Source of the DNA: Dendrophyllia cribrosa
Lineage: Eukaryota; Cnidaria; Anthozoa; Scleractinia; Dendrophylliidae
Assembly: GCA_024195265.1 (NCBI GenBank)
Contig: JAJLRJ010000003.1
Span: 31,587,643-31,651,642 of the forward strand
Direction: 5' to 3'
DNA: 64,000 nt
Notes under the pieces: generated by a model
What the model was told of the DNA's origin: nothing
Seen by the model: only the letters and a program-made list of their open reading frames with translations
The model's database searches: none
Shown: piece by piece, positions 1 through 63,466 of the stretch
How the letters are laid out: each line of letters opens with the position of its first letter
Position numbering within the stretch: the first letter of the stretch is position 1
Made by a program: the position numbers and the translations under genes

Positions 1-1865
1 GTTGATCATCAGTTTAAAAAAACTAAGCGTTCAGATTAGATACAATTTACTGTTATTATAAATTATGTTTGTTTACTTATTTCCCATTATTTGTTCAGGC
101 TTTTCGATAAAAGATAATTTCTTAAAAGTATTTACTAGTGCTAGTGAGGAATACGATTTTAGGCCGGATATTTTAATTTACTTGAATCATCATTGAGGTT
201 TGTCCCCTGATGTTCACCTTCAAGGCCTCAATAAAGAGTTTAAGACATTACAATTTCTGAATTACAATTAATACGCCACTGAAGGCCTAATAATGTCGTA
301 CGAAAATACAAACATCACTGGTAGCGAAACCTGTGAACATTCAGACCGCCCAATGAACTCATATTATAACTCCCTGGATGGTTAGCAATTTATATGCAAA
401 TACATACATTTAAATGCTAATTCCTCACTTTGTTACTATAATTATAGTGATCCGCTAGCGATACTCCTTATAACGAACTGAATTTCAATGCAAGACTGTT
501 CTCCTGTTTATTAACTGAAATATTTGATAACATCTCAAAAGTTACTACACAAAAACCTTGTCAATGGCTTCTTTTGTTGGCTAAGATCCAGAGATGCGCC
601 GGCGGAGACAGAACGAATTAACATTTTGGTGTTTACGTGATCGTGGTCATAATATCTGAAATGCTCTTTAAGTATTAATGCTCAGCGCTATATGAGTTTA
701 GTCTCAACCGATTTGCAGCACGAATCGAGAGAAAAGGTAGGCTTCCGACTTACATGAACATACTTAAAACAGCGTTTCTAGCATAGTTAGAGTTGTTACT
801 TTTAAAACGTCTTAAATTTGTGTCTTACTACAGCCGATTTCACTGCAGTATGCAATCCCAGGGTTTCCCAAACATTATATATTTTCTTTTATGAAGCAAT
901 TACATGGGCGAATTTTCTTCACCTATCTCTAATCATAGGCTATCATTGCAGCTCAATCAGCCATCAGATCAAGTCTGAAAACCCCAGCTCGGGGTCGATT
1001 TATTTGCAATATTCGCCTATAGTTGTGGTACTTTCCCGCGTGAGAGTATTTGATGGTTTTTAAGCTTAGAAATAATGAAAAGAAAAAAAAAACATTTTAA
1101 CCATCTATATTTTGCCAAAAGAAGTGCATATCCAGACCGATTAATCCTATAATGAACGTTAATACGTTAAGTTATTAGCTTCCCCTCGGTTGAGGCTGGT
1201 TTTCCGTTTACCTCTGGAAATGTATTTTGCATACAGTATTCGGTATTCTATGGAATTCTTACTCACTAAGTTATTAACTGAAAGGGAAAGTTCAGGTGTG
1301 CATAATTAGAGAAGCTGTTTTGCTTCAGGGCTGAACCGAAGTTATCAATATCGAACCTTATTACCAACTGCCTGGGGATAGGAACATTAAACCTTATCGA
1401 TCTGTTTCTATGTAACCCATAACAAGACAGAAACAGCAAAACAGCACGTTAGGTGACAGAATGGAGTGGCATGTATGAGTTACACTGAAACTAGACAAAG
1501 CAGTTTTAATATAAAAATACAAAGGAAACTGAACACCAACTGAGAAAAACCTCGGTCGAATTTTCTGGGGGAATTACATGTAATTCTGGTTTACCGATCT
1601 CGCACCTAAAATGCACGCTTGTTTCTTTACAAAATAGCTGAATGAATATGGCCTCTAAGAATTTATTTTCGATGCACTGAAGTCTGAGTCAGGCGGGCGT
1701 CAAAAATACAACGACCACCTGCTGAAGCCAAAGAGAAGCCAAAGAACTGGCATAATGCCTCGGCAAATGTCACGGGCTAGGATGACACATTTGCATAAAG
1801 GTTACTGATAACTATCCTTTAAAACCGAATTTTATTAATCTATGCTTTTACTCTCGAATGGTTGT
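1..1865. other. AT-rich intergenic stretch, no gene seen
   Basis: I see no domain, splice-linked exon chain, RNA gene or long repeat here. The longest open frame (818-1063, 81 codons) has no recognisable motif and is probably chance. Confidence 0.5.
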
Positions 1866-2012
1866 ATAGAGCGTTTTCACTTGACGTCATAGCCGCCATA
1901 TTGGTGTTCCCGTACAAAAGAATTTTAAGTAACTTCTTTTGTTAGGAACACCAACATGGCTGCCATGGCCTTTGTCATTTGAGTCCCACGGGAATGAGTG
2001 AAAACGCTCTAT
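1866..2012. mobile_element. 147-bp MITE with ~16-bp terminal inverted repeats
   Basis: The left end ATAGAGCGTTTTCACT is matched by its reverse complement at the right end (about 1997-2012). Inside, the arms continue imperfectly (GCCGCCATATTGG-like on the left, CCAACATGGCTGCC-like on the right), so the element folds back on itself. There is no coding capacity. The superfamily is not assigned; flanking bases suggest a short TA-type duplication but do not prove it. Confidence 0.75.
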
Positions 2013-3393
2013 TATCGGTTGAACGTTGATTTCAGATATCAGCCCCGAGGTGATGTTTTACACCGCCGCTCGGTCAATCAGAAAATATAATGTCCGGTAG
2101 TTAGGGCTTCATAAAGGGCACGAACAAGCTGAGTCATCTAACCTTTTTTTTCGTATTTGTCAGTGACAAAAATCAGCCAATAGACTGTGAGAAAAATATG
2201 AAACACAACAGTTTCAAATGCATAAGAAATGCGAGGGAGTACCCGATACAGTTCTTTTTTTATGGTTTAACTGATCAAATCCATTGACGTTTTACTTGTT
2301 GCGCATGTTTTTTCTCACGCCGTAATTATGCTACTTTACCTTCGACTTCATTACTTGCCTGATAATTCCGTATCTCTTTTCCCTTATACGGTAAAATGAC
2401 GTAGAAATGTAGAAGCGGTATACATAAAACAACATCATTAGTTCTCCTGTTTCGCCCAAACAAGTAAGCCTGCTTCTCTGCGCGTTAAAAAACTCCAATT
2501 GGTGACTGGAAGCCTTGTTAATTTAAAGCTTGTATACACAAGGCAACAGCGACACAAGGCAACAGCTATACAAGCGCGCAAAGGTAAGCTATGAAGAGTA
2601 GAAATGGTACTTTAGCTACGGCTTTTTTAAATGAACGTCGCAAGCTCAACACTAGGAAAAATAGGCAAAGCTTCGGACACCTGTTTCGGATTAATTTCTA
2701 GAATTTCGGTCAACGTGGTTTATTTAGCGGATACTTAGGTAGTCTTTTGACAACTTGATCTGGCGATTTTCAGAGGGCGATATTTCACGACTTTTAAAAA
2801 TTGTCCTCGTCGTTTTATTCCATGTTTTGTTTTCAAATTGCTAATAAAGGCTAGAATATTTCATGTCGTGAAACGTGAGAACTGCCTGAATGAACTCACC
2901 GGAATTGAGCAATTTCAAAAAGCAATGCAGCCTAGTCCCTCTTTTTCTTTTTTTACCAATTAGCTTTTGTCCTGAAAACACAGTTTGTAAAAATGTGGCT
3001 GATGTAGATTTTCTACAAAAACGAGTTTCAGTCACACACAGAATTAGGGAAATGCAAACCTTCCTCTTATTTTAACATATATTTCCGCCTCTGGCCATTC
3101 ATTTGCTTTTGTTTTATTTGACAAGACGTCACATTCACATTGGTAATTATAGACATTGTTTGCTTTTTTGGCGAGACAAAAGACAAAGGCTGTAACAAAC
3201 TTGGAAAAAAGTGAAATAAATTTCATCTATAACGTTAACATCACCCTATAGGAAACTCCCTGACAAACTCGCTAAAAGACTCAACACTACATTAACATAA
3301 CCAACATATGACTCACAAATAAAATTAGATGTTTTGGGGGTTAACTTCGATTCGTCTCGGCGTTCGCGCTAGTTTTTCTATCTTTTTGCTGCT
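2013..3393. other. Intergenic, no gene seen
   Basis: Only short overlapping open frames on both strands (for example 2841-3075) with no protein-like composition. I see no repeat or RNA gene here, apart from the tandem CAAGGCAACAGC words near 2540-2565. Confidence 0.4.
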
Positions 3394-3441
3394 ACACCGT
3401 GCTGACGAGACCCAACCAGGTCGAAACAGCTGTCCACGGTT
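3394..3441 (+). ncRNA. Type I hammerhead ribozyme motif
   Basis: All catalytic elements are present in order. Stem I 5' strand is 3394-3401 (ends ACCGTG). The CTGACGA core is 3402-3408. Stem II pairs GACC (3409-3412) with GGTC (3419-3422) around a six-base loop. GAA is 3423-3425. A very short stem III pairs ACA (3426-3428) with TGT (3431-3433). C17 is at 3434, and the stem I 3' strand CACGGT (3435-3440) pairs with ACCGTG. Cleavage would fall after 3434. A near-loopless stem III is what is described for hammerheads in animal retroelements, which are thought to work as dimers; ACAGCTGT is self-complementary, which fits. Activity is inferred. Confidence 0.8.
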
Positions 3442-3469
3442 GCATTTTGGCTTTCAGTTTGGGCTCTAT

Positions 3470-4090
3470 CAGGGGCACCCAACGATGGTTTATCCCAAAA
3501 CTCCCTAAAACACCGTTTTAGGCTGTCTAAAGTGCTTTTAAAACTATATAACTGAATTATAAGCTTCCCTAGAAAATCTTAATCTGTTCGGTCGTTCTAG
3601 GGGAACTTTGGTCTTCACGAATTTATTAGGCATGTTTTACCCATTTCCCGAAAACCTCAGGTCGTTTTTGGAGATTATCGAAAAGGTTAGGTCACCCAAT
3701 GATGCCTTTTGATAGCCGAAAATTTTAGGGAACCTTTTTATAGGATGAAGGATGTGAGAAGGTTATTCGAAAACCCCAGGGATTTCAAATGTGATATCGA
3801 ATCTTCTAGGGCGACAGAGAACTCTCTTCATCCTCTCCTCGCTATAAATCCAAAGTCGGTATAGAAAATGTTAAGGGCTTAAATTTTTTAAGAAAATTCT
3901 AGAAAACTTCAAAGGAAAAGCGCGATTTTCGAAAAAAAAGTACGAGAAGCCATTAAGAAAATCCGAAAATCTCAGATGAATGGAACTGCCATCTCGAAAT
4001 TCGTAGGATCCTTTGTGGTTTCGAAATTTCTAGGGAACCTATACCTTTCCGAACAGATATTTAACAGAAAACGATCGTTGGGTGCCCCTG
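3470..4090. mobile_element. 621-bp TIR element with 6-bp target duplication (element A)
   Basis: The ends are CAGGGGCACCCAACGAT and its exact reverse complement (17 bp). The 6-bp direct repeat CTCTAT flanks it at 3464-3469 and 4091-4096. The interior has no coding region. It carries many short words of the type GAAAnnTTCTAGGGAA in related forms, repeatedly in the same orientation. The terminus is closely related to that of the 9.9-kb element at 28995-38891 (CAGGAGTACCCAACGA), so this looks like a small non-autonomous relative. Confidence 0.85.
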
Positions 4091-4187
4091 CTCTATCATG
4101 TCGTTGTTGCGTTAGTTGTTCTACGTAGTATCAGCTTTGCTCACTATGTTTCAATCAGTCCGACTGAATGATAACTTTTTAATAGGA

Positions 4188-4314
4188 TAACAAACATCAA
4201 AATTCAAGAAAAATCCCAAATTTCATTTTGTAAAATATTGAAAAACAAATGGTGTCGTGCAAAAGTACTGCTGAATAGGTTTCATTTGAATGGTCACACC
4301 ATTCAAATGGTACA
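4188..4314 (+). repeat. Dispersed repeat fragment shared with 55.69-55.83 kb
   Basis: The order of words (CAAAATTCAAGAAAAATCCC, a TGAAAAACAAA stretch, AAAGTACTG, then TTTCATTTGAATGGTCACAC) recurs with mismatches at about 55705-55815. The end of this copy forms a small hairpin, CATTTGAATGGT against ACCATTCAAATG. It is a piece of an old interspersed family. Confidence 0.6.
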
Positions 4315-4321
4315 ACTACAC

Positions 4322-4500
4322 CAGGGCTGTCATTAAGATTTGAGACAGGCGTTGCTCTGATCTTAACACCCGTAACAATCTTGTTGCTTTGTCGTTCAAT
4401 TTAACCTATGACAGGCAAGATCACCCGTAACATCAAGGTCTAATCAAGTGCACTCACCCGTAACAGATGCTACGGGTGATGGCCCTTAATGACAGCCCTG
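4322..4500. mobile_element. 179-bp MITE with TACAC target duplication
   Basis: Perfect 16-bp terminal inverted repeats (CAGGGCTGTCATTAAG at the left, its complement at 4485-4500) are flanked by TACAC at 4317-4321 and 4501-4505. The interior repeats the word ACCCGTAAC several times. It sits directly against the left end of the larger foldback at 4506-5100. Confidence 0.85.
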
Positions 4501-4505
4501 TACAC

Positions 4506-5100
4506 CACAGGGAGCCCACACAATCTGTTCGTGTAACATAATTGTTTGTAATTTTATTGGAAATGTATTGGATTTACCTAAATTTCATATTATAGCGACG
4601 TATCGCCAAATGTTTGTACTGATTAACGCCAATTAAATGTTAAATTACCTTATTTGTCGTGTGTTGTCGTCCTTTTGCCGTAAAAGTGATATTTTGAGCG
4701 ATTTTTAAAGGATTCTGAGTTATCACTTTTACGGCAAAAGGACAACAACACACAACAAATAAGGTAATTTAACGTATGCTTAGCGTTAATCAGTACATAC
4801 ATTTGGCGATACGTCACTATAATATGAAATTTAGGTAAATCCCATACATTTCCTATAAAATTACAAAAGGTTATTACAGTAATAGACCACTTTCATAATG
4901 GCGGCCGATTTATTTATTCTTTTATATGTATGTTAATTAGCCTCACTGGCCTCGGTAACATGTGCAAAATTCAAAAGAATTTTTACTCTAAAATGAGGCC
5001 AGTGAGGCTAATTAACATACATATAAAAGAATAAATAAATCGGCCGCCATTATGAAAGTGGTCTATATGTTACACAAACAGATTGTGTGGGCTCCCTGTG
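4506..5100. mobile_element. Foldback element, interrupted by another MITE
   Basis: The 34-bp outer ends (4506-4539 and 5067-5100) are inverted copies with one mismatch. The pairing continues inward through about 4546-4690 against 4722-4870, with a spacer of roughly 30 bp at 4691-4721. The right arm is split by the insertion at 4882-5066; without that insertion the arms align throughout. ACTACA occurs at 4315-4320 and again at 5101-5106, consistent with a target duplication that was later split by the neighbouring MITE. Confidence 0.8.
4882..5066. mobile_element. 185-bp foldback MITE inside the right arm of another foldback
   Basis: The arms are about 70 bp each (4882-4951 and 4996-5066), starting ATAGACCACTTTCATAATGG and ending with its complement. 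The spacer is about 45 bp. It is nested, so it is younger than the host foldback at 4506-5100. Confidence 0.85.
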
Positions 5101-5700
5101 ACTACAAAATGATTATCGCTCCGAAATTGAATATGGATCAACACTGTTGTCAAATCTTTTAACATAACGGTTGTGTAAAGAGCAGCTGAAAGCTGATAAA
5201 TGGCTATCTTTTCAACATGCTGATTCTTGACGCAAGTAATATGGGTTAAGCTGTAAGTTACAACAGAAGCTTATCACGTTGTTATTATGAGCTTCTAGAT
5301 ACAACTCAGCCAGACAAGCTCAGCTCGTTGCATAGCAGTTTTTAAGTCGATTTTAGAACTTGGCATTACTTACACAATGTACTGAGACTCTACGTAAGAG
5401 TTTATTTTGCCCGGATTTCAAGTTGTTTTGCTTTTTTCCAACAGGCGTCTACAATTTTTCATTGATAACAAGAGGAAAAAGCAAACTTTGATTACTACAC
5501 AGAAAGGTAAATGTTTCATAATTATTATTCTCCTTAAATGACTTAATAATTACTTTAAACGGTTCATTCATTAAAACAAAAGCTCAGCCAGAGAATTTTC
5601 AAATTACTTAAGATGCGAATAGTTCTTCTCAAACTCATCGATAATTTATCAAGTTTCAACAAAGACATCATAAAGGTCACGAAAGTTTGGAAACTCGATC
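5101..5700. other. No gene or clear element seen
   Basis: AT-rich sequence between two mobile elements. I find no open frame of note, no splice-linked exon and no inverted repeat of useful length. Confidence 0.4.
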
Positions 5701-5704
5701 TTAA

Positions 5705-6149
5705 AGGGGCTAAGTCGCGAGGATGGCGGGTGAGTACTGGGTACTAACAACTTGAAAAACGTCCGGTGGCTTTTTATCAAGTTGGCGGCCATTACAGTCG
5801 AATTCGCTGCAATCCGTTCCATCCCGTCGTATTGCGTGGAAGGATAGATCTCAAGTTTACAAATTAGTTAGAGTATTTACTTGGCTAGATTTTTGTTAAA
5901 TTATTTCTGCGATTTGTTAGTCGTACCTTCGAAAAATTCGATGTATTCCAGTAGTGGTGGAAGTTGGGGAGGAATTAAAAAGCGAAATCGATCGTGTGTT
6001 TATTTACCTCGCGTGGTTCGACACGAGTGCAAGCGCGATGAAACTTGCCGCGATCCGGGAGGGAACAATAGAAATTTGACATGTGTGACGTCAGGTGACG
6101 TCACATGACAGGAACTCATTGCGCAGACTCATCTTGCGACATAGCCCCT
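5705..6149. mobile_element. 445-bp TTAA-flanked MITE
   Basis: The element starts AGGGGCTAAGTCGCGA and ends with a near-complement (TCTTGCGACATAGCCCCT). Both sides carry TTAA (5701-5704, 6150-6153), the duplication typical of piggyBac- and Kolobok-type transposases. Near the right end is a tandem pair of TGACGTCA-like words. No transposase is encoded; the 75-codon frame at 5881-6108 lies inside and is not protein-like. Confidence 0.7.
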
Positions 6150-6177
6150 TTAATAAGCATAAATTTTGGTGATTTCT

Positions 6178-6350
6178 ATAATCAGTTTGAGAAGCTATAT
6201 CAAACAATCCAAAGAATGTTTCATCAGGGATCCAAACACCTCGAAATCAGTTTAAAAAAAACTTGGCTGCGGCTCGTTGTTTCAATCCACTTCCAGGGTT
6301 TTGGAAATCCTGATTTAACACTCTTCCTCGTGTTTGATATATAACAACAA
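6178..6350 (+). repeat. Dispersed repeat, copy 1 (shared with 21.54-21.76 kb)
   Basis: Ordered matches to 21540-21760: a GTTTGAGAAG start, a GAATGTTTC word, CACCTCGAA, an A-run, TTGGAAATCCTGAT and a GTTTGATATAT end. The copy here lacks the expanded CACTTCACACTTCG array present in the other. No coding potential seen. Confidence 0.65.
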
Positions 6351-6580
6351 AATTAATACAAACCAATCATCGTGGGCGTCACTGATGGAAGTAACTGGTC
6401 GAGTCTTTCCTTCAGTTCTTTGCTTGTTGTGACGTTATTAAATTCAATAATAGAGAGATTAAGCACCGCGTTTTACGGCAAACGGCAGTTGTTTATCTTT
6501 ACCTTTCTTCGAATCGTTAAATAAATTCACCAGAAATCGAAAATAATTCCGGCATGTTCTTGACAAATGCGCAACTACAC

Positions 6581-6768
6581 ATAGACAAATTCGGCTAACG
6601 CATTGTTGTACCCAATTCAAACCTTCTGGGAATAACATCCTTTGTTCACAGTATTTCCATATAATTTCCATGTCAATGCTTCATTGATATGGAAATACGA
6701 CGAACAAAGAGTTCTAATCCCAAAAGGTTTGAATTGGGTACAACAATGCGTTTGCCGAATTTGTCTAT
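6581..6768. repeat. Foldback with ~80-bp arms
   Basis: Left arm 6581-6661 pairs with 6688-6768 (ATAGACAAATTCGGC against its complement, then the shared TTGTTGTACCCAATTCAAAC word) around a spacer of about 26 bp. Outside the arms, ACGGCAAACGGCAG occurs in the same orientation at 6474 and 6780, so the full element may be longer. The short frames on both strands here simply mirror each other. Confidence 0.7.
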
Positions 6769-7082
6769 TTCCATGTAGAAACGGCAAACGGCAGACAGCA
6801 AAAGTTGGATTTCTGTCTTCACGGGAAAAGCGTGATGCCTAATCTCTCAGGATTTGCGTCAAGCCCAGGACCGGATCAAAAGAAAATATTTCGTTATTCC
6901 TGATAAGCAAAAACGTGCCAAAACACTCGATGTTGCTGCTTTTGATGTCTTGTAGTCCTGGTTGTCACAACACGTCAAAGATGATATCGTAAACCTCCAG
7001 GCGGTGTTGGGAGAAATTTAATCTTGAGGTTATTCAGTTTATTTTTTCTTGACGCTGTCAACATTTCAGCTCTCCGTGATCT

Positions 7083-7560
7083 AGGATAGGATAGGATAGG
7101 AAACCTTTATTTATACACGATATGTTTAAAAGCTAAAAGCTTGTGGGGTCGTGTAATTAAAAATACACATGCAGTCACTAAGATAAATTTTCTAAATAAT
7201 AACTTAAAAATAATAATACTCCAATTACTCTAGTAACTGGATTCACACATCAGATCAATTATATACATAATCTTTTAACTTAAAATTTAAAATCGATGCG
7301 GATGTAACACTAAAATTATAGTCCATAAAAGTCTTAGAGGACTCTAGCATACGGGCTAGATCCTTATACCCGGTATCTTTAGCCATGTCTTTATTTATTT
7401 TTGTCAACGTATTCCAAAGAATGGAACCCCTATATGCTATAGAATTTTTCATATCATCATCAGTCGCGTGTTGAAGCGTGGGACTAATAAAGAATCTTTT
7501 GCCCTCGGTGAAGTTGTGAGGTTTTGCTTCTTAATGATGCAGCTACTTAAAGTATCCGGT
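7083..7560 (-). mobile_element. LINE 3'-end relic
   Basis: On the minus strand, 7452-7255 reads as about 65 residues with SIAYRGSILWN followed by a charged stretch, the kind of C-terminal tail seen in CR1/L2-type LINE reverse transcriptases. Downstream on that strand the sequence ends in a tandem TATCC repeat (7083-7102 on the plus strand, GGATA units), a typical 3' terminus for such LINEs. The catalytic part is missing, so this is a dead 5'-truncated fragment. Confidence 0.55.
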
Positions 7561-7925
7561 AATCTCTCTTTGGTTGCCTTATGTATTAATTTAAAAATAG
7601 ATAATTTATAATAAAAATACAAAGTTGTCCACTGTGATAATTCTGTGAAAAGATTATCTTTACTTCTTGGAGAAGTTGCTGCGCTCCTCCGTTTTACATC
7701 CTTCTCTGACGTACTGGCGTTCGAAACGTCATGAGTTTGATTCCCGTGGGGAATCAGATTTGTCTTTACCCATTTTCATGACGTGTTGAATAAAATTAAC
7801 TTATTACGCTTGATATTCGTACGATATTTCATAATAATTATAATATTTCTCGGTGGAAATACCGGGTTCTAATGATTCGAACTGAGAATATTGTTTACTT
7901 GTAGATTCTGAACATTGATGAAGTC

Positions 7926-8858
7926 ATGGATCAAAGCCCATTCAACACGTCAAATCAGGCATGCTGGAACTGCACAAGCGATCAAACTGGCACATCAGAA
8001 GATTATTCTTCAATCATTCAGCATTCAGCCAAAGAAGCAGTGGTAGTTCTCTCTGTGATTTCCGGCTTGGCCAGCCTCATAGGAAGTGTGGGAAATGCCT
8101 TGGTTCTTCTTGCAGTCTTGAAAAACGAGCACCTTCGAACGATACCCGATCTCTTCATCACCAGTTTGGCATTCTCTGACTTCACGGTTTGCGCGCTGTT
8201 TCTGCCAATGTCCATTTACTACTTTCAACACCCAGAGGCCAGAGATGAAAACGTGTCGTTTTATCAAGCAAAACGTTTCCTCGGCCACACCTCCATGGTC
8301 GCATCTGCAACCAATATGTTCGCAGTGACTATTGATCGCATTTTTGCGATTAGATTTCCATTCAAATACACTGCTACAATGACAAAGATGCACGCTCTGA
8401 TTGAGATCACGATTGTATGGATCATCTCTTTTACATTTGGCGTTCTATACACGCGTGACTCCATCTCGTTTCTTTACGTGGGATTTTACAGCGTAATTCT
8501 GTTATTCAGTACCATAGCGTTGTACATCTACATCTTTGTAACCGCGAAACGCCAAGAGAACAGAATTCAGGACATAAGAAAGGTGTCTGATGGCTCAGTA
8601 GTGGAGAAAAAAGTGGCCAAAACCATTTTCACAGTTGTAGGTATTTACGTGATATGCTGGCTACCGATGCCTCTATTTCCAGCAATTGTCAATCCTTCAA
8701 CAAAACCGGTGCAGTTTGGAAAAGGGTTTCCTTGGGTTCAAACTCTGCTGGCTTGTAACTCGGCAATCAATCCTTTTATTTACTGTATGAGGAGTCAAAA
8801 GTACCGCACAGCATTCCGTCAAATACTGAAAATGAAGCGCCTTGTCAATAATCAGTGA
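7926..8858 (+). CDS. Class A (rhodopsin-like) G protein-coupled receptor
   Basis: A 310-residue intronless receptor. The extracellular N-terminus (1-37) has N-glycosylation sequons at N7 and N15. Seven membrane segments follow. Landmarks: GN at 56-57 (TM1), LAFSD ending at D85 (TM2), DRI at 137-139 (the DRY position), CWLP at 244-247 (TM6) and NPFIY at 282-286 (TM7). The C-tail is short. The cysteine normally found at the top of TM3 is absent, and ECL2 is very short with no cysteine, so the canonical disulfide cannot form. The start is the first in-frame ATG, about 20 bases after TTGTTTACTTGTAG, which looks like a 5'UTR intron acceptor. The ligand is unknown; the layout resembles the orphan amine/melatonin/adenosine-like receptors that are expanded in cnidarians. 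Family assignment is firm, subfamily is not. Confidence 0.93.
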   Translation: MDQSPFNTSNQACWNCTSDQTGTSEDYSSIIQHSAKEAVVVLSVISGLASLIGSVGNALVLLAVLKNEHLRTIPDLFITSLAFSDFTVCALFLPMSIYYFQHPEARDENVSFYQAKRFLGHTSMVASATNMFAVTIDRIFAIRFPFKYTATMTKMHALIEITIVWIISFTFGVLYTRDSISFLYVGFYSVILLFSTIALYIYIFVTAKRQENRIQDIRKVSDGSVVEKKVAKTIFTVVGIYVICWLPMPLFPAIVNPSTKPVQFGKGFPWVQTLLACNSAINPFIYCMRSQKYRTAFRQILKMKRLVNNQ

Positions 8859-11040: not shown

Positions 11041-13510
11041 TTTTTTTTTTTTTTTTTTTTTTTTAGTTTAATTGAAGTTTATTGATAAGTACAATACAAT
11101 ATACAATATTAACAAACAAAGAACAACGTTACAGAACTGAAATAAAAGGAACAGACAAAATACAACTGCTATATCAAGCTTGTTTGCGGCTAAAGGCTCA
11201 GGGATTCACGGACACTTGAAGGCTCTATAGATAATTTGTGTTTCAGAAAAGCTTTAAAGGCTAAGAAACTATATGGTTCGCTTTCTTTGGCTGCGGTGTA
11301 GATATAAAAACGAGCGACAATCAGGCAAAGATTAAACTTATGGAAGGATCTATTCTCAGGGAGATATCCGTAAATCTTATCATTATTGGTCAAGGACACT
11401 GAGGGCGAGTTATTATCGTTCCACCAAGAGGTAAAAAGGTTCCAGAAGGAGTGGACATGCTGGCATTCAGCAAACAGATGCTCTACGGTCTGCTTCAATT
11501 CACACACATGACAGGAGGCACTGTCAGCAATTTTGGCCTTGAAAAGTTTGTCGCGAGTGTACAGAATGTGATGGTTTATTTTAAACTGAAACATAGAAAG
11601 CTTTATGTTTTTTGTGAGCTTGAATGGAAGAACGTATAACGCCTCAATTGTCCGATCTGTGAAGCCAGCCTCAACAAGACGAACTTCTGATGTTGGTTTT
11701 TGGAAAGATTTAGATACATAAAACGCGCGTGCTTGCCGGCAAGTGGGAGGTGAGTTGTTAAATGGCTGAACTGAGTCATCCGAAACTACCAAGTAATTTT
11801 CGTTATCACATCCAAAGACTTTCCTCCAATGCTTTGGTATTGCATTACACAAGCCAATATAGCACAAAAAGGTTGTGTTAATTTTGTACTTTTCCTTGAA
11901 TGCTGCAAACGTCAAGAACTTTCCTTCCTTGTCTAAGATGTCTGGCAAGGTCTTAACGCCAGCATCATACCATTGCTTATAAAAAACAGATTTGCCGCCA
12001 ATAGTGACTTCATGATTATTCCACAGAAACTCATTTTCGATTTCGTTCTTTGTCTTTACTGTGTGCTTGGATATGCTCTCCCAAGCACTGAGAACGTCTC
12101 GGTAAAAAAGCGGCAGGAGAGGGAGCACAGGTAAAGTTCTTAACGAGTAATTACATTTAAACAACAACGGACCACCTACACTGTCTAAAAGGCTAAACGG
12201 TATTGTCTTCCAAGATTGCGCTTGAGGGTCTAAAAGACGTTTCACCCATCCTGCCTTCAAAGATTTATCTATTATATCGAAATCAGGCATGCTGAGTCCG
12301 CCGTCTTTTATCCTTCCAATCATAGTTGAGTGCTTGATTTTGGGTGGTTTGTGGTTCCATATAAAGTTGGATACAGATTTGTTCACTTGATCGACAAAAC
12401 CAGCGGGAACGCTGAGAACAGAGGAAATGAAAATTATTTTTGAAAGAGCTAAGCTTTTGACAATGGTTATTTTTCCAAAGAGTGTTAAATCCCTAGAGGA
12501 CCAGACGTTAAGACACTTTTCCAGGGCGACAAATTTTTTTTCAAAGTTATCCTTTGTTGAAGCTTCCGAATCACATGAGAAAGAGACGCCTAGACAAACA
12601 CACTTCTTGGGCCAGTTTATGTTGAAAAGGTTTGTCGATTGTGGTCTAGTTTTTCCCAACCACAATGCCTCCGTTTTTGATCTATTCAGCTCTAATCCGC
12701 AACACTCTCTAAAAGCCGCTAACTTCTCGAAAAGCTTTTCAACTGACTTTTCGTCACGCACCAAGCATGAGGTGTCATCCGCGTATTGAGATAACTTATA
12801 CTCCCTGCCTTTGAAATTTATACCGGTGATCAATTTGTCGTTTCTTATTGAATTTGCTAAAATTTCGACAGCAGTTACAAAAAGTACACCAGAAAGAGGG
12901 CAGCCTTGCCTTACACCGCGCTCTAATTCAAAAAACGACGTTGCATAACCATTATTTATAACGCAGCTTTGAATATTGCTGTAAAAAGTATTGACCCACT
13001 GTATTAAAGGAGCGCCGAAATTAAACGTCTCTAAAGCCTTTTTAATAAAGTTCCACTCTAAACTGTCAAAGGCTTTTTTGAAATCCAAAAACAATGCTAT
13101 ACCTGGATTATCTAGCGTTTTTGTGCACTCTATAATGTCTGCTATTAAACGTATGTTTTGACCAATAAAGCGGCCTTTGATATATCCCGTCTGGTCCTCG
13201 TGTATAAGGCTGGGTAGCACCTTCGCAATTCTAGCTGCGATTGCCTTAGTGGCAACTTTATAGTCTGTGTTCAGAAGCGAGATAGGCCTCCAATTGTCCA
13301 AAAGAGTCCTGTTTTTGTCTTTCTTTGGAATTAGAGTGATGATACCTCTCTTTTGAGAAATTGACATTTCACCCTTTTCAAACGCATAATTAAAGCTGTC
13401 AACTAATTCTTGCCCTAATAACTCCCAAAAGGAAAGATAAAATTCCGCAGTTAAGCCATCCGTACCGGGAGACTTGCCTTTGGAAAAACTTTTAAGTGAG
13501 ACATAACATC
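11041..13510 (-). mobile_element. 5'-truncated non-LTR retrotransposon (LINE) with 14-bp target duplication
   Basis: CTGATTGACATGAT occurs at 11027-11040 and 13511-13524, exactly flanking the element. On the minus strand the 3' end is a 24-base poly(A) (T-run 11041-11064), preceded by a 3'UTR of about 125 bp and the ORF2-type reading frame. The 5' end is cut inside the reverse transcriptase region, so the upstream endonuclease domain is missing. Perfect duplications, an intact frame and an intact poly(A) indicate a fairly recent insertion that was dead on arrival. Confidence 0.95.
11190..13508 (-). CDS. LINE ORF2 fragment: reverse transcriptase with C-terminal zinc-binding domain
   Basis: The frame is open from the truncation point (about 13508) to the stop at 11190; the first internal ATG is at 13367. 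From the N-terminus: KGKSPGTDGLTAEF (the usual lead-in motif), LIPKKDKN, NWRPISLLNTDYK, ALFLDFKKAFDSLEW (catalytic Asp motif), RGVRQGCPLSGVLF, and QYADDTSCLV with the catalytic YADD. The C-terminal part has CHVCELKQTVEHLFAEC with a WNLF motif, a typical zf-RVT zinc-binding module. The pattern is that of the L1/Tx1 group. The apurinic endonuclease domain that normally precedes the RT is absent through 5' truncation, so the copy cannot move by itself. No internal stop or frameshift is apparent. Confidence 0.93.
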   Translation of the reverse strand, partial: CYVSLKSFSKGKSPGTDGLTAEFYLSFWELLGQELVDSFNYAFEKGEMSISQKRGIITLIPKKDKNRTLLDNWRPISLLNTDYKVATKAIAARIAKVLPSLIHEDQTGYIKGRFIGQNIRLIADIIECTKTLDNPGIALFLDFKKAFDSLEWNFIKKALETFNFGAPLIQWVNTFYSNIQSCVINNGYATSFFELERGVRQGCPLSGVLFVTAVEILANSIRNDKLITGINFKGREYKLSQYADDTSCLVRDEKSVEKLFEKLAAFRECCGLELNRSKTEALWLGKTRPQSTNLFNINWPKKCVCLGVSFSCDSEASTKDNFEKKFVALEKCLNVWSSRDLTLFGKITIVKSLALSKIIFISSVLSVPAGFVDQVNKSVSNFIWNHKPPKIKHSTMIGRIKDGGLSMPDFDIIDKSLKAGWVKRLLDPQAQSWKTIPFSLLDSVGGPLLFKCNYSLRTLPVLPLLPLFYRDVLSAWESISKHTVKTKNEIENEFLWNNHEVTIGGKSVFYKQWYDAGVKTLPDILDKEGKFLTFAAFKEKYKINTTFLCYIGLCNAIPKHWRKVFGCDNENYLVVSDDSVQPFNNSPPTCRQARAFYVSKSFQKPTSEVRLVEAGFTDRTIEALYVLPFKLTKNIKLSMFQFKINHHILYTRDKLFKAKIADSASCHVCELKQTVEHLFAECQHVHSFWNLFTSWWNDNNSPSVSLTNNDKIYGYLPENRSFHKFNLCLIVARFYIYTAAKESEPYSFLAFKAFLKHKLSIEPSSVRESLSL

Positions 13511-13524
13511 CTGATTGACATGAT

Positions 13525-14660
13525 GTCCATCATTAAATACCGTCCTAAAGTGATGACTTCACAAAAACTAAATTTGTGCAATGATGGGATTTGATGAGAT
13601 ACTGTAAATGGAAAGAGCCTGATGAAAAATGCCCATTGAAAATGTATGGAGTCATAAAAGCAAGAAAGTGCCATATCACCCCAAAATTGCAATATCAAAG
13701 ATACCGATTTTTGGCAGGCGGGCATTTTTATCATGTTCTTTCAGGTTATCTCAACAAATCTCATAATTTCACAAGTTTAAGTATTTGTGACAACATAAAG
13801 AAAATATAAAATATTACTTGGGAAGCTGACAAGTAATAACACTTTCCAGAAAGAATGGAATACTGATTACTTGGGAAGCTGACAAGCAACTTCGAGTTCA
13901 GCGAGCAATAGCCGAGACAAGAAAAAATTTAAAATAAGGAAACGAGTTTAAACTCGCGCTCTGCTCGTTGGTTTGAAACTGTAATAAATGCGTTCTTGCT
14001 GTCAACAGAAATCGTCAATACTAATCCTGTGTCACATATATACTGACGCCATACTGACCACGTTTTCGAAAGCGGCGACTCACGTTGCTCTCATTTCTGT
14101 TCAGTTTGACCCGCGTTTAGCGGCAAAGAAAAAAATATGCTGTACCAAAACTACAAAACAAAACTTTATAAGCTTACCATGCAATAAAGCAAGAGGTCTA
14201 GTCTTGCTTGACTGCTGGAGTCTGCTTGAATGATTCATATGGCTGCACGTACAGAAAAATCTTTAAAAGACAAATATGCCGCAACCATCAAAAGTACATA
14301 GTCAATGATGATACGGTTCCCCGGGAAGGTTGGCGAAGAAATAACAAAGTAAACTCAGTATTAAGCATTGAAAATAGACTATTCAATGATGAAGCGAATG
14401 AAGCGAATAGTGGACATGAATTGATCGACGAAGCGATCCTTTCTGGTCACCAAGACAACGATTGGTGCGGTACACTGAGTTCGGTACGGAAATACCCAAA
14501 TCGACCAATCACAGAGCGGCTTTGTAATGCTACATAAAGGACCACTGCAATTTTTTACCGTTTCATCTCGCGTCAACATGTCAAAATATTCTGTTCATCT
14601 GCTCTGATATGTTCGCAATACTTAAGGGTGGAGGCGATCGTTGATATTTGAAAAGAACAC
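13525..14660. other. No gene seen; short direct repeat
   Basis: ATTACTTGGGAAGCTGACAA occurs twice, near 13815 and 13866 (period about 51 bp). The open frames at 13988-14233 and 14208-14537 have no recognisable domain and no supporting splice context. Confidence 0.35.
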
Positions 14661-16777: not shown

Positions 16778-17565
16778 GGGCCTGTTTACATGGAGGGAGG
16801 GTGACTCGGATACCATGGTCACCATCCCAGCCGGGCTAAAACATAGCCCGCCTTTAAATGAGCGGGTTATTAGGGCGGGCTATCACATAGGCGAGCTATC
16901 TTTTATTATATTTGGCGGGCTCTTGTTTTGGTGGGCTCATGTTTTAGCGGACTTTAGTTATTGCAACGGCGTGCTCTATTTAGCACTACATAACAAACAT
17001 GTTTTTATCGCTTGTTCCGCTTGCTTTTGCAGTTTCCTTGGTTTAACGGCTTGCTTGTTGTTAATGCAACGAAATTATCAGACGATTTACTATGATTTTC
17101 TTCGACAGCCGGAGGTTTTTGACAAATAAACACGACAAAAATATTCGCCACGCTTGAATGGCACCGCCATCATGTTGGCGCGGGTTTTCAAGTCAACAGA
17201 AATAAAAGTGAAAACTGCAAAGGACCGCAAACGATAATGCTGCTAACAACATACGTAGGATGTACAAGAGACCTAACCAGCCAAAACAAAATGAATAAAC
17301 ACACGATAAACTGCACGGCTGATATAGCCCGCCTAGGAGGGTGACCCTGGGTGACCGTTTACATGTGGAAAAGATAGTCCGCCTAGGAGGGTGACCCTGG
17401 CAAGCAGACAGGGTGACCCGGGTAGGCCGGTGACCCTGTCTATCATGTAAACACTCGGCACTGTGCTTTGTAAAGAAATGTATGAAAAGTTGGCCCTCCC
17501 AGGGTAGCCCGGCTAGGAGGGTGACCCTGGTACCCGGGTCACCCTCCCTCCATGTAAACAGGCCC
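16778..17565. mobile_element. 788-bp TAA-flanked TIR element (PIF/Harbinger-like)
   Basis: Terminal inverted repeats of nearly 30 bp (left start GGGCCTGTTTACATGGAGGG) are flanked by TAA at 16775-16777 and 17566-17568. A 3-bp TWA duplication with a GGGCC-type terminus is the PIF/Harbinger signature. The interior holds repeated GGAGGGTGACCCTGG words near the right end and a 104-codon frame (16815-17129) that is not a recognisable transposase, so I call it non-autonomous. Confidence 0.82.
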
Positions 17566-34284: not shown

Positions 34285-36708
34285 GATTTTTTTCACTTGC
34301 ACATTTTGCTGCTCGGTTTTGTGAACTACTTGGTACAAATGCCAGTGTGTTTGCGAGCACTTGCGGTGATTTGATGTAAGTTCCAAATTTCATGAGGGTT
34401 GGATTTCTTTTTTTCACTTGCACATTTTGCTGCTCGGTTTTGTGAACTACTTGGTGCAAATGCCGGTGTGTTTGCGAGCACTTGCGGTGATTTGATGTAA
34501 GTTCCAATTTACATGAGGGTGGGATTCCTTTTTTCACTTGCACATTTTGCTGCTCGGTTTTGTGAACTACTTGGTACAAATGCCAGTGTGTTTGCGAGCA
34601 CTTGCGGTGATTTGATGTAAGTTCCACATTACATGAGGGTGGGATTTCGTTTTTCACTTGCACATTTTGCTGCTCGGTTTTGTGAACTACTTGGTACAAA
34701 TGCCAGTGTGTTTGCGAGCACTTGCGGTGATTTGATGTAAGTTTCAAATTACATGAGGGTGGGATTCCTTTTTTCACTTGCACATTTTGCTGCTCGGTTT
34801 TGTGAACTACTTGGTACAAATGCCAGTGTGTTTGCGAGCACTTGCGGTGATTTGATGTAAGTTCCACATTACATGAGGGTGGGATTTCTTTTTTCACTTG
34901 CACATTTTGCTGCTCGGTTTTGTGAACTACTTGGTACAAATGCCAGTGTGTTTGCGAGCACTTGCGGTGATTTGATGTAAGTTTCAAATTACATGAGGGT
35001 GGGATTCCTTTTTTCACTTGCACATTTTGCTGCTCGGTTTTGTGAACTACTTGGTACAAATGCCAGTGTGTTTGCGAGCACTTGCGGTGATTTGATGTAA
35101 GTTTCAAATTACCTGAGGGTGGGATTCCTTTTTTCACTTGCACATTTTGCTGCTCGGTTTTGTGAACTACTTGGTACAAATGCCGGTGTGTTTGCGAGCA
35201 CTTGCGGTGATTTGATGTAAGTTTCAAATTACATGAGGGTGGGATTCCTTTTATCTCTTGCACATTTTGCTGCTCGGTTTTGTGAACTACTTGGTACAAA
35301 TGCCAGTGTGTTTGCGAGCACTTGCGGTGATTTGATGTAAGTTTCAAATTACATGAGGGTGGGATTCCTTTTTTCACTTGCACATTTTGCTGCTCGGTTT
35401 TGTGAACTACTTGGTACAAATGCCGGTGTGTTTGCGAGCACTTGCAGTGATTTGATGTAAGTTCCACATTACATGAGGGTGGGATTTCTTTTTTCACTTG
35501 CACATTTTGCTGCTCGGTTTTGTGAACTACTTGGCACAAATGCCGGTGTGTTTGCGAGCACTTGCGGTGATTTGATGTAAGTTCCACATTACATGAGGGT
35601 GGGATTTCTTTTTTCACTTGCACATTTTGCTGCTCGGTTTTGTGAACTACTTGGTACAAATGCCGGTGTGTTTGCGAGCACTTGCGGTGATTTGATGTAA
35701 GTTTCAAATTACCTGAGGGTGGGATTCCTTTTTTCACTTGCACATTTTGCTGCTCGGTTTTGTGAACTACTTGGTACAAATGCCGGTGTGTTTGCGAGCA
35801 CTTGCGGTGATTTGATGTAAGTTTCAAATTACATGAGGGTGGGATTCCTTTTATCTCTTGCACATTTTGCTGCTCGGTTTTGTGAACTACTTGGTACAAA
35901 TGCCAGTGTGTTTGCGAGCACTTGCGGTGATTTGATGTAAGTTTCAAATTACATGAGGGTGGGATTCCTTTTTTCACTTGCACATTTTGCTGCTCGGTTT
36001 TGTGAACTACTTGGTACAAATGCCGGTGTGTTTGCGAGCACTTGCAGTGATTTGATGTAAGTTCCACATTACATGAGGGTGGGATTTCTTTTTTCACTTG
36101 CACATTTTGCTGCTCGGTTTTGTGAACTACTTGGCACAAATGCCGGTGTGTTTGCGAGCACTTGCGGTGATTTGATGTAAGTTCCACATTACATGAGGGT
36201 GGGATTTCTTTTTTCACTTGCACATTTTGCTGCTCGGTTTTGTGAACTACTTGGTACAAATGCCGGTGTGTTTGCGAGCACTTGCGGTGATTTGATGTAA
36301 GTTTCAAATTACATGAGGGTGGGATTCCTTTTATCTCTTGCACATTTTGCTGCTCGGTTTTGTGAACTACTTGGTACAAATGCCAGTGTGTTTGCGAGCA
36401 CTTGCGGTGATTTGATGTAAGTTTCAAATTACATGAGGGTGGGATTCCTTTTTTCACTTGCACATTTTGCTGCTCGGTTTTGTGAACTACTTGGTACAAA
36501 TGCCGGTGTGTTTGCGAGCACTTGCGGTGATTTGATGTAAGTTCCACATTACATGAGGGTGGGATTTCTTTTTTCACTTGCACATTTTGCTGCTCGGTTT
36601 TGTGAACTACTTGGTACAAATGCCGGTGTGTTTGCGAGCACTTGCGGTGATTTGATGTAAGTTCCAAATTTCATGAAGGTGGTATTTCTTTTTTACTTGC
36701 ATATTTTG
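34285..36708 (-). repeat. 120-bp satellite array, about 20 copies, with a 600-bp higher-order unit
   Basis: Each 120-bp unit differs from its neighbours at a few positions (CCAGTG or CCGGTG; TTCCACATT or TTTCAAATT; ACATGAG or ACCTGAG; TTTTTCAC or TTTATCTC). A block of five units (about 35101-35700) is repeated exactly at 35701-36300. Since 120 is divisible by three, the minus strand is open for 797 codons (34274-36667), giving a 40-residue repeat with TSNHRKCSQTH and QVVHKTEQQNVQ. I treat it as a satellite, not a gene. Confidence 0.9.
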
Positions 36709-38590
36709 CACTAGGGAGTCAGCGAAATATTGTCCTGTTTTAAAATGTAATTTTTAATTAGTTGGTTTTTATCTCTTTGCAGATTTTGACGTTGACTTCT
36801 GACGAAGATGTCACATGTTTCCTGTTCGATGTAAGGAAATATAGTTAACTTTCTGTTTAATGTGATAAGCAGCCGTTAGGAAAACTAAGTATTAATGATG
36901 AACTTGGGTCTTGTCTTTCGTTGCAAGTGCGAGATTTATATTTAATTCAGACCGGGACTGATACAATCCAAAACCGCATGTAGGCAATAAATGTCGATAG
37001 TGAGCTTGAGCTTTGGTGTGATTTTTTGCATTTGTGCTTAGCTATGCATCACATGTTTTGTTTTTATTTGCCAGAGACCTTGTGGGTCCAGGGAGTGGAA
37101 CACAACAAGAAAGCAGGATACATTTCATTATATAAAACGTCCACAAGAAAGGTCTTAAAAGAGAACAGAAGTTGAAAGTAGACTATGTGGTGTTTTTAAA
37201 GCAAAAATATGTAGGTTTTGGCAATCGTTCTTACGTTTTAACATTATTATGACAGCGGAAAAAACCCGTGCCAGAGACAAAATAAGCCTTGGGTACCAAG
37301 TATTTCATTACTGCGCTTATTTGCAAAAACTGAAAACACGCGTTGTTGTCGTGTGCTGCTCAAACAGAGCACCCAGGTATATTTGGTAAGTTTTTCTGAC
37401 ACTGGTTCGAATGAATAAGGTTCAAGTAGACCATTACGATGCCACAGTTAAAGTGCATTAGAACAATCGCTACAGTAAGGATACGGTTAAGTTCCCTCAA
37501 GTTACGGCAAAAAAAAGAAACTTAGAGAATCGTATGGGTGAAGTGACGTCACAAAATGGTGGCTGGCAATGTTTTTTCGGAAGTAACCGATAAAGTGCAG
37601 CAAATCGTACAAGATATCATTTTAGGAGTATAAAAAGAGAATGCACGTTTGCCATTAGTGGCTGAAGAGACTGTTGGTTCTTGAAAAAGTGAAAGGCTAA
37701 AAGACCGCAGCGACCGAATTTAGTTTGTCTTGTTCCTTTTTGGAAGACCTCAAAGTTGACTGTTGCAATAGTTCAAGCGCGATGTCACAAAATCGTTAAT
37801 CACGCGTTTTCACCTGTTTTACTAGCATTTAATTGTCGCAGTACTGTTCATCGTCCATTAATTATCATTCGTAGACTGTTTCTTACTGGCATTTGATTTA
37901 AAAAAGTAGAAAAGAATTTGTACGTTGAATTTATAGAATTATCTATAGTGCCTCAGTTCCCTTGGATCTGAAATACCAGACTTGGATTAGTTTTTCTTTA
38001 TCGTTCAAAGTCTTTTAACATAAGCAAATAACTGTTCTTGCTAAAATTGAGATGATCATACTACACATATTTCAAGACTTTAGCTACTGTGTTATGGAAC
38101 TAAATGTGCGTAATGTTCCATTAATCATATGTTTGATACCTTAATCAAGGTCTAAGGCATAATACATTTCAGTGCTTTCAGATAGACTGACCTTCGAACG
38201 CGTCTCCATAATCTCTGATTACTGCTAGTTCCTACAAGCTTATCATTTACAATATTATATTAAGTCAAGTTAAGGAAAACTCATATGAACATAAAAAGCT
38301 GAACGGAATGTTGTGTTATGGCCGTTTGTGACCATATACTCAAAGTGCAAACTATTCAGCGACATCGTCTAATATAACAACTGCTGCATTGCTACCAATG
38401 TTACGTGTAAAAATTTAAAAGCGGGAAGGGGAATAGAAGCAAGTACACTATTTCACTATTTCACAGGTGAGTGAAGCGTTTCCATCACGAGGTAGGTAAA
38501 ATTTCTACTAATTTTGGGTATGGTGTGGATCCGTGGTAGCATATTTAACCATTAATACAATGGTTTTTGTTAGCGGTTACCGTCCTTTTT
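36709..38590. other. Non-coding interior of element D
   Basis: No domain-bearing frame. A strong acceptor-like TTTATCTCTTTGCAG (ending 36781) is followed by 16 open codons and a GATGTAAGG donor-like site at about 36830, but no partner exon in phase was found. Otherwise AT-rich sequence. Confidence 0.35.
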
Positions 38591-57284: not shown

Positions 57285-57424
57285 CGACTGGATGTGTAAC
57301 ACTTCATGTATCACTGTTGTTGTTGTGTTCACCTTAAGAACATCAATAGGGAGAAGGGAATTGAAATTCCTAAGGCGTGTATGCCTTAGACTGCTAATCA
57401 CGAAAACAAGCTCCAGGAGACTGG
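57285..57424 (+). repeat. Left arm of an older inverted repeat hosting the Penelope pair
   Basis: 57285-57318 (CGACTGGATGTGTAACAC, then ATGTATCACTGTT) is the inverted counterpart of 63723-63754, with a 2-base gap. Further inward, GTATGCCTTAGACTGCTA resembles the inverse of 63611-63636. The arms are otherwise diverged and unequal. Confidence 0.55.
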
Positions 57425-57486
57425 GGTTAGTTTCTAGAGAAACTGTGGTGCTGCGTCGGTGGGGGGATGAAACACGAGAATTTAGT

Positions 57487-57505
57487 TTTATCGACTGAGT
57501 CGATA
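57487..57505. repeat. 19-bp palindrome near the element end (minus copy)
   Basis: TTATCGACTGAGTCGATAA has 9-bp arms around one base. The equivalent in the plus copy is at 63428-63446. It lies between the hammerhead-like motif and the element terminus. Confidence 0.8.
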
Positions 57506-57528
57506 AGGTAAATTGACCACCGTAAAAA

Positions 57529-57577
57529 GATTCAAATAGCTGACGTTTCGAGCGCTAGCCCTTCGTCGGAGCGAATC
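57529..57577 (-). ncRNA. Hammerhead-like motif, minus copy of the Penelope element
   Basis: Identical to the motif at 63356-63404, read on the minus strand; see that entry for the structure. Confidence 0.5.
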
Positions 57578-57667
57578 AAGGAATTGTGGGTAGTGTGTGG
57601 TTTTATATAGTAAGCGGTGGAGCTACGCTATTGGTGGAAGTTTGGTGACGTGAAAAACAAATGTAGA

Positions 57668-60381: not shown

Positions 60382-60552
60382 CGTTGTCTTCGGTTCGTTC
60401 GGTGAGAAAGCTGTTGAGTAAGAAATATTGATGTAAAAAGTTAATGGTCGCAGCGAATAAACAACAAATGAATGGGGTTAGTTTCTAGAGAAACTGTGGT
60501 GCTGCGTATTTCTTACTCAACAGCTTTCTCACCGAACGAACCGAAGACAACG

Positions 60553-63265: not shown

Positions 63266-63320
63266 TCTACATTTGTTTTTCACGTCACCAAACTTCCACC
63301 AATAGCGTAGCTCCACCGCT

Positions 63321-63332
63321 TACTATATAAAA
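63321..63332 (+). promoter_or_regulatory. TATA-like box near the 3' end of the Penelope element
   Basis: ACTATATAAAAC lies about 30 bp before the hammerhead-like motif. In Penelope elements a promoter in the repeated terminal region (pLTR) drives the next copy. Here it would start transcripts close to the motif. Position-based inference. Confidence 0.4.
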
Positions 63333-63355
63333 CCACACACTACCCACAATTCCTT

Positions 63356-63404
63356 GATTCGCTCCGACGAAGGGCTAGCGCTCGAAACGTCAGCTATTTG
63401 AATC
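63356..63404 (+). ncRNA. Hammerhead-like ribozyme motif in the Penelope 3' region
   Basis: Stem I: GATTC and GCT (63356-63363) pair with AGC and GAATC (63392-63394, 63400-63404). Core CCGACGA instead of CTGANGA (U4 is C). Stem II GGGC pairs with GCTC around TAGC, preceded by one extra A. GAAAC and GTC follow, with a two-base, loopless stem III. Hammerheads with minimal stem III are described in Penelope-like elements. The U4-to-C change would weaken or abolish cleavage. Confidence 0.55.
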
Positions 63405-63466
63405 TTTTTACGGTGGTCAATTTACCTTATCGACTCAGTCGATAAAACTAAATTCCAGGAGACTGG

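Follow-up and report, generated by a model that had tools for sequence, protein, structure and literature searches.

The window, by which we mean the whole 64-kb stretch of coral DNA that was analyzed, contains a hammerhead ribozyme motif lying within a copy of a repeat, here called F1, that is split by a 621-bp inverted-repeat element (element A). It also holds a fragment of the F1 relative F2 and a head-to-head pair of Penelope-like arms (Table 1). The other features of the stretch are a seven-transmembrane receptor frame at 7905-8858 (PF00001; 160 homologues at E ≤ 0.001, and among the 120 listed those with a legible organism name come from Oculina, Stylophora, Acropora and Montipora, which makes a stony coral the most likely host), a 779-aa LINE-type frame on the minus strand at 11190-13529 with matches to RVT_1 and zf-RVT, and, at 34288-36709, a 120-bp tandem array of ~20 copies (96% matches) through which a 798-aa open frame runs on the minus strand. 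At 4506-5100, outer repeats (4506-4540/5066-5100) enclose fold-backs with arms at 4538-4691/4721-4874 (91% complementary) and 4882-4953/4995-5066 (100% complementary); sub-threshold Rfam miRNA matches at 4628-4784 fall on this fold-back repeat and were discarded.

Table 1. Features of the hammerhead locus and of related repeats in the window; signed offsets are counted from the core start at 3402
Feature	Position	Strand	Basis
F1 repeat copy, 5'-truncated, first part (-43 to +67)	3359-3469	+	alignment to L073, L036
Outer stem I helix, 5' strand TGC	3390-3392	+	pairs with 3442-3444
Type I hammerhead ribozyme	3396-3440	+	RF00163; pair counts from 44 distinct rows
Stem I, 6 bp	3396-3401/3435-3440	+	sequence and spacing
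Core CTGACGA	3402-3408	+	sequence
Stem II GACC/GGTC	3409-3412/3419-3422	+	sequence and spacing
GAA	3423-3425	+	sequence
A3426-U3433 pair, adjoining C17 (3434)	3426/3433	+	sequence and spacing
Helix III, self-complementary ACAGCTGT	3426-3433	+	2 bp under AGCU cap (monomer), 8 bp (dimer), cofold
Predicted self-cleavage site	between 3434 (C17) and 3435	+	RF00163 alignment
Outer stem I helix, 3' strand GCA	3442-3444	+	pairs with 3390-3392
Element A target duplication CTCTAT, left copy	3464-3469	+	
Element A, 621 bp, 22-bp terminal inverted repeats (21/22 letters agree)	3470-4090		inverted repeat, target duplication, terminal inverted repeats
Element A target duplication CTCTAT, right copy	4091-4096	+	
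F1 repeat copy, second part (to ~+122, short 3' end class)	4097-4151	+	alignment
F2-like repeat fragment, 3' part only (+106 to +215), ribozyme gone	17211-17323	-	alignment
Penelope-like head-to-head pair, left arm (candidate relative of the mobilizing enzyme)	57419-60507	-	
Penelope-like head-to-head pair, right arm	60507-63455	+	includes frame 61901-63265

Comparison of the window with Rfam 15 (cmscan) gave a single match above any cut-off, to RF00163 (Hammerhead_1, type I), with a score of 49.8 bits against a cut-off of 34 and an E value of 6.3e-10. No second hammerhead was found at E ≤ 10, either across the window or in 2600-4500 searched by itself. Judged by sequence and spacing, the motif has an intact core, three helices and the cleavage site H17. 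The preliminary description had listed the CTGACGA, the GACC/GGTC stem II, the GAA, the A-U pair beside C17 and the 6-bp stem I, and each of these lies where it was placed there, as does the self-complementary stem III word; the type I covariance search that it suggested is the one that cleared the cut-off. An outer helix of stem I, TGC/GCA, is separated from the inner stem by a TAC/T internal loop. Loop II, CAACCA, agrees with the Rfam CAAAUA at four of six places, and the contact between the stem I loop and loop II is putative. A looser structural motif has this single site in the window; of 600 dinucleotide-shuffled strands, 2 contain it. The window motif is a genuine type I hammerhead. By itself, such a ribozyme is ordinary for corals: the available text of PMC7229834 reports more than 6000 type I hammerhead motifs in A. 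millepora, 1508 of them canonical and the canonical ones residing in 220-240-bp tandem repeats, so that a hammerhead in coral DNA is to be expected.

In the monomer, helix III consists of only 2 bp, and cutting would therefore probably be best in a dimer or with the aid of a protein. With the nearest-neighbor model, the monomer 3390-3446 is predicted to prefer a competing fold, in which GCUG pairs with CAGC and the hammerhead core is destroyed, at -18.0 kcal/mol; the hammerhead, outer helix included, comes to -12.1 kcal/mol. RNAalifold also prefers the competing fold. When two copies of 3390-3446 were cofolded, a double hammerhead with an 8-bp stem III was obtained at -40.1 kcal/mol, compared with 2 × -18.0 (-36.0) kcal/mol for the separate monomers, and its mean pair probabilities ranged from 0.82 to 0.97 by helix. 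As a prediction, this bears out the earlier proposal that two transcripts could pair through stem III as a stable dimer. With longer flanks (3361-3469 or 3361-3470) the hammerhead was predicted neither in the dimer nor in the monomer, its pair probabilities being near 0 for 3361-3470, in models that omit tertiary contacts. Complementarity of the 3' flank as a built-in block of the ribozyme was rejected, as it was equalled by 68 of 500 shuffles. The window ribozyme resembles the newt satellite hammerhead in being type I; two copies of the newt ribozyme are described as joining through helix III and cutting better as a dimer (PMC6155905, available text), and the amphibian hammerhead tetraloop is palindromic (PMC7229834, available text). 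However, the newt repeat is a satellite array of ~330 bp, whereas the F1 repeat is dispersed.

Throughout the 627-Mb assembly that contains the window, a core pattern in which the helix III letters were left free gave 805 matches and a pattern with helix III fixed as ACANNTGT gave 736, the reversed control giving 0 in both cases; the free pattern still sets the length of helix III, and minimal hammerheads would not be counted by it. Counted by eye, exact ACAGCTGT is present in 83 of the 100 matches listed out of these 805. We used the pattern counts because a genome search with RF00163 (73 matches from 74 scored of 97571 candidates) did not include the window's own motif and is thus a poor count. 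By the letters of their stems, four main types can be told apart among the fetched ribozymes, F1 (the window type) to F4. The loci retrieved yielded 96 ribozyme occurrences, some from places retrieved twice, and 16 of these match the window exactly over 58 nt. The preliminary description had named substitution of the core in every other copy as evidence against the motif, and this is therefore not what the genome holds. It had also raised tandem or dispersed copies; those seen are mostly dispersed (805 core matches in the genome), intact head-to-tail dimers being rare. Searches for hammerhead relatives elsewhere gave 0 and 0 in viral contigs and 0 in prokaryote contigs; the one match in a looser viral scan (L001) had no Rfam family above cut-off and was taken as chance.

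Pair statistics were computed from 45 rows, the window among them, of which 44 are distinct and comprise 660 cells. The rows are related to one another and were selected by the core pattern, and the support that the statistics give is thus for stems I and II as well as the outer helix; it does not extend to helix III. Paired cells make up 93.0% of the 660; shuffles gave 84.0%, and sliding the rows never gave more than 38.0%. Cells changed on both sides number 72, versus 27.9 in shuffles. Two of the five pair measures fail against shuffles, namely pairs with changes on both sides (6 versus 5.7) and further pair types (16 versus 17.0). At its outermost position, the outer helix has UA in 15 rows, GC in 10 and AU in 9, and is unpaired in 10.

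When element A is removed, 166 of 166 letters of the window copy align to other F1 copies, at 98.8% to L073 and 98.2% to L036. Because F1 copies align continuously across the junction once element A is taken out, element A was inserted later, inside the hammerhead repeat. The distance of 23 bp given earlier between the motif (end 3441) and the element A target duplication (start 3464) is accurate; the companion statement, that the motif lies outside every element that can be delimited, fails, as element A is nested within the motif's own repeat. The guess of an unrecognized retrozyme or Penelope remnant fared well, the motif belonging to a dispersed non-coding hammerhead repeat (805 matches) whose insertions have Penelope hallmarks. 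A diverged direct repeat spanning element A was rejected, since 94 of 500 shuffles matched or exceeded its score of 21. The window copy lacks an inverted partner, and no clear target duplication was seen by eye in its printed flanks. The sampled copies are mostly 5'-truncated and dispersed. In 20 loci picked by their 3' tail there are 18 ribozyme spans, 12 of which keep a loose core and 8 the strict motif, with 3 identical to the window's 58 nt; the copies thus decay, and no sign of selection on single copies was seen.

The F1 unit of 510 bp was taken from one permuted locus (L072), in which the 3' tail (+154 to +221) lies at -356 to -289 before the next core. For F2, two loci contain ribozymes 527 bp (L029) and 531 bp (L064) apart, with the whole unit between them. 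The GC content of the repeat unit is 0.44, and no long reading frame is present, the longest ATG frame being 57 aa in the F2 unit and 47 aa in a 478-nt stretch of F1. Head-to-tail arrangements are present in L029, L062, L064 and L072. Genome-wide, intact head-to-tail pairs gave one match at ~270-298 bp (F1 only) and one at 503-533 bp (F1/F2), with patterns that would miss damaged dimers. A 283-bp tandem period, derived from L062, had one genome match and was discarded; L062 is a partial tandem, and the unit is 510 bp by L072. Folded as a circle, the F2 unit is predicted at -177.4 kcal/mol with 65% of its bases paired (mean of 60 shuffles -138.1, z -6.65) and the F1 478-nt stretch at -143.0 kcal/mol (z -5.18).

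These properties recall the metazoan non-LTR retrozymes described for Acropora millepora, mussel and axolotl (PMC7229834, available text), which likewise have a non-coding unit between ribozymes with a GC content below 0.45, a type I ribozyme with a 2-bp helix III and a tetraloop (the invertebrate-like form, as in the window), a stable predicted circle and a coral among their hosts. However, there are differences. The F1/F2 unit of 510-531 bp lies outside the ~170-400 nt given for those retrozymes, the F1 copies sampled are for the most part dispersed, truncated or arranged head-to-head, intact head-to-tail dimers are rare, and the hammerhead fold is absent from both predicted circles (the F2 unit and the F1 478-nt stretch). 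In animal retrozyme circles, the hammerhead is mostly reported as left free, according to the same partial text.

Among 32 distinct F1 loci, four re-fetched duplicates excluded, 16 contain a head-to-head pair, 13 a single copy and 3 direct copies only, and none is tail-to-tail; leaving out L062 and L065, both fetched for holding two motifs, brings the count of head-to-head loci to 15 of 30. Among 100 places listed for the ACANNTGT pattern there are six neighbor pairs closer than 1 kb, four in the order - + and two + +. Twenty head-to-head pairs have a gap below 60 bp (L034-L103), and in 14 of them both outer ends fall in a defined class, short (+100 to +145) or long (+200 to +226), the other six being unscorable. 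Of the scorable pairs, 13 are long/short, 1 is short/short and 0 are long/long. Ten of these 14 come from loci picked by the motif (9 long/short and 1 short/short, or 8 and 1 without L065), and four come from L084-L103, which were picked by the long 3' end, so that there the long end is given. Target duplications of 7-11 bp flank 7 of the 14 pairs, one pair has 5 bp and six have none; in a mixed-flank control, 74 of 2000 reach a 7-bp duplication.

In the 20 tail-picked loci (of 43 3'-end matches), the 5' ends of the long arms are spread between -197 and +43, and their 3' ends lie at +214 to +221. The reference copies end at +221 to +224 and longer 3' ends could therefore not show in the end scoring; evidence for a real F1 end there comes only from the comparison free of that limit, in which F1 matches do not reach past the +225 bin. 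Copies that start exactly at the cleavage site number 3 in the genome, versus 0 at one control offset, which is suggestive of cut RNA as a template and too few to claim it.

Insertions of this kind are familiar from Penelope-like elements (PLEs). In rotifer Penelope elements, head-to-head is the arrangement most frequently observed, one inverted pseudo-LTR carries an optional tail, and the target duplications are 8, 9 and 10 bp, with some inserts having none (PMC3846280, available text). A purified Anolis PLE cleaves both strands of its target and extends them, starting inside its RNA, and its hammerhead cleaved RNA only in the presence of its protein (PMC11167929, available text). Taken as a group, the hammerhead-bearing PLEs share with F1 the head-to-head arms, the tailed arm, a type I ribozyme and, for the half of the scored F1 pairs that have them, short target duplications (PMC7761336, PMC11167929 and PMC3846280, each in part). 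In contrast to PLEs, the F1/F2 unit has no long frame, and so no reverse transcriptase plus GIY-YIG frame, and F1 possesses helix III, whereas the PLE motifs described in the available texts are minimal variants, usually without it.

The window pair at 57419-63455 is called Penelope-like on the basis of matches of frame 61901-63265 to RVT_1 (23.4 bits, cut-off 29.6) and GIY-YIG (21.9 bits, cut-off 22.6), both below the Pfam cut-off, together with the tandem and head-to-head copies of its family. That family gave 93 matches scored of 11154 candidates, most of them 99% identical, and frames of up to 935 aa are common; it looks very young in this genome. Some copies stand in tandem, 3049 bp apart, and among the 93 places listed the neighbor pairs closer than 8 kb comprise 16 in the order - +, 6 + +, 1 - - and 0 + - (n = 23). 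Measured against the tandem copy L104, the left arm of the window pair extends 59 bp further than the right, an inequality that resembles the short and long ends of F1. In one inter-ORF stretch of the family, neither Rfam at E ≤ 10 nor our own scan gave a hammerhead, and the stretch had no significant similarity to F1 or F2; the link between F1 and Penelope is thus carried by the insertion geometry. Two of the hammerhead loci retrieved, L036 and L045, contain GIY-YIG fragments with 39-41% identity to the window PLE; L037, which overlaps L036, shows the former once more.

Because the sampled F1 geometry matches that of Penelope elements and not the tandem arrays of coral retrozymes, we read F1 as a retrozyme-like element mobilized by Penelope-type machinery, and F2, by its homology with F1, in the same way. 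The locus represents an intact type I hammerhead in a 5'-truncated copy of this non-autonomous, non-coding retroelement that was later split by element A, and to this account, together with the cycle given below, we assign a probability of about three in four. The window copy, a single short-ended insertion, is probably a fossil, and its ribozyme could cut if it were transcribed. In the cycle that we propose, the repeat would be transcribed and the ribozyme would cut after C17 (3434), the folding predictions favoring a dimer or protein help. A Penelope-type reverse transcriptase would then take RNA that spans the cut site, be it uncut, rejoined or circular; if RNA was the template of the copies, any copy that spans the ribozyme derives from a molecule uncut or rejoined at the cut site. 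Synthesis would begin on both strands of a target broken in staggered fashion, each time at one of two preferred places (~+122 or ~+218), and the resulting cDNAs would come together at their 5' ends. Such a process would yield head-to-head pairs in which one 3' end is short and the other long, flanked by duplications of ~7-11 bp, which is the arrangement seen in the sample, the enzyme being the presumed part.

The insertion geometry, the single tailed arm and the 7-11-bp duplications are all PLE-like, and they would also fit an account in which F1 is no independent retrozyme and represents instead the solo pseudo-LTR and tail of an autonomous, hammerhead-bearing PLE of this genome. Type I hammerheads do occur in PLE pseudo-LTRs (PMC7761336 and PMC11167929, available texts), and the GIY-YIG fragments in L036/L037 and L045 are consistent with such a parent. 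We nevertheless regard this account as unlikely, if deserving of real weight. F1-F4 keep helix III, whereas published PLE hammerheads are, in the texts available, minimal and usually without helix III or tertiary contacts. The unit closes on itself at 510-531 bp with no long reading frame, and the single PLE inter-ORF stretch examined, from one family, has neither a hammerhead nor significant F1 similarity.

To our knowledge, head-to-head pairs with one tailed end are no usual LINE pattern, which counts against F1 being an ordinary non-LTR retrozyme of the published coral kind that is mobilized by LINEs. The type I hammerhead, the GC content of ~0.44, the non-coding unit and the stable predicted circle (z -6.65 for F2) would suit such an element, corals are known hosts (PMC7229834, in part), and repeats with 15-bp LINE-like target duplications are described from a sea anemone (PMC4918200, available text). 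However, the unit of 510-531 bp compares with 220-240 bp in A. millepora and ~170-400 nt in animals, and intact tandem dimers are rare here, as against published arrays of up to 62-mers, both as given in the parts of the reports available. Mobilization of this kind is improbable for F1, and we keep to the Penelope-type reading.

That the core is intact although the copy carries a nested insertion could be taken to mean that the host has kept the ribozyme at the window locus for a domesticated or regulatory role, in the manner of the amniote intronic hammerheads. This is very improbable, given hundreds of dispersed copies where the amniote type is a conserved locus of few copies, the decay of those copies (8 of 18 spans in tail-picked loci with the strict motif) and the lack of any Pfam match at E ≤ 0.05 in the six frames of 1-7901. 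A chance match has a negligible probability, given the E value of 6.3e-10 and the 2 of 600 shuffled strands with the looser motif, and is refuted by 805 genome matches versus 0 in the reversed control.

For the mover of animal retrozymes, PLEs have been proposed as a strong candidate on the grounds of shared type I hammerheads, tandem copies and coexistence (PMC7229834, available text). The F1 insertions add structural evidence to that proposal, which can be put to the test because the genome also contains a young Penelope family in many copies. A wider form of the idea would have coral hammerhead retrozymes as non-coding satellites of PLEs, with a Penelope reverse transcriptase acting in trans from two fixed start places and writing both strands of the break, such that the retrozymes form one mobile system with the ribozyme-bearing pseudo-LTRs; we advance it tentatively, as falling somewhat short of an even chance. 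In the literature searched, the reach of which mostly left out subscription journals, no report of retrozyme insertion ends of the F1 kind was found.

Two further observations concern individual copies. L034 and L084 share what appears to be the same inverted junction, with ~-41 joined to +34, and one may be derived from the other or the junction may recur; the window copy, too, starts at -43. In L032, a copy of type F3, a second, shortened ribozyme-like sequence that lacks stem II directly follows the first.
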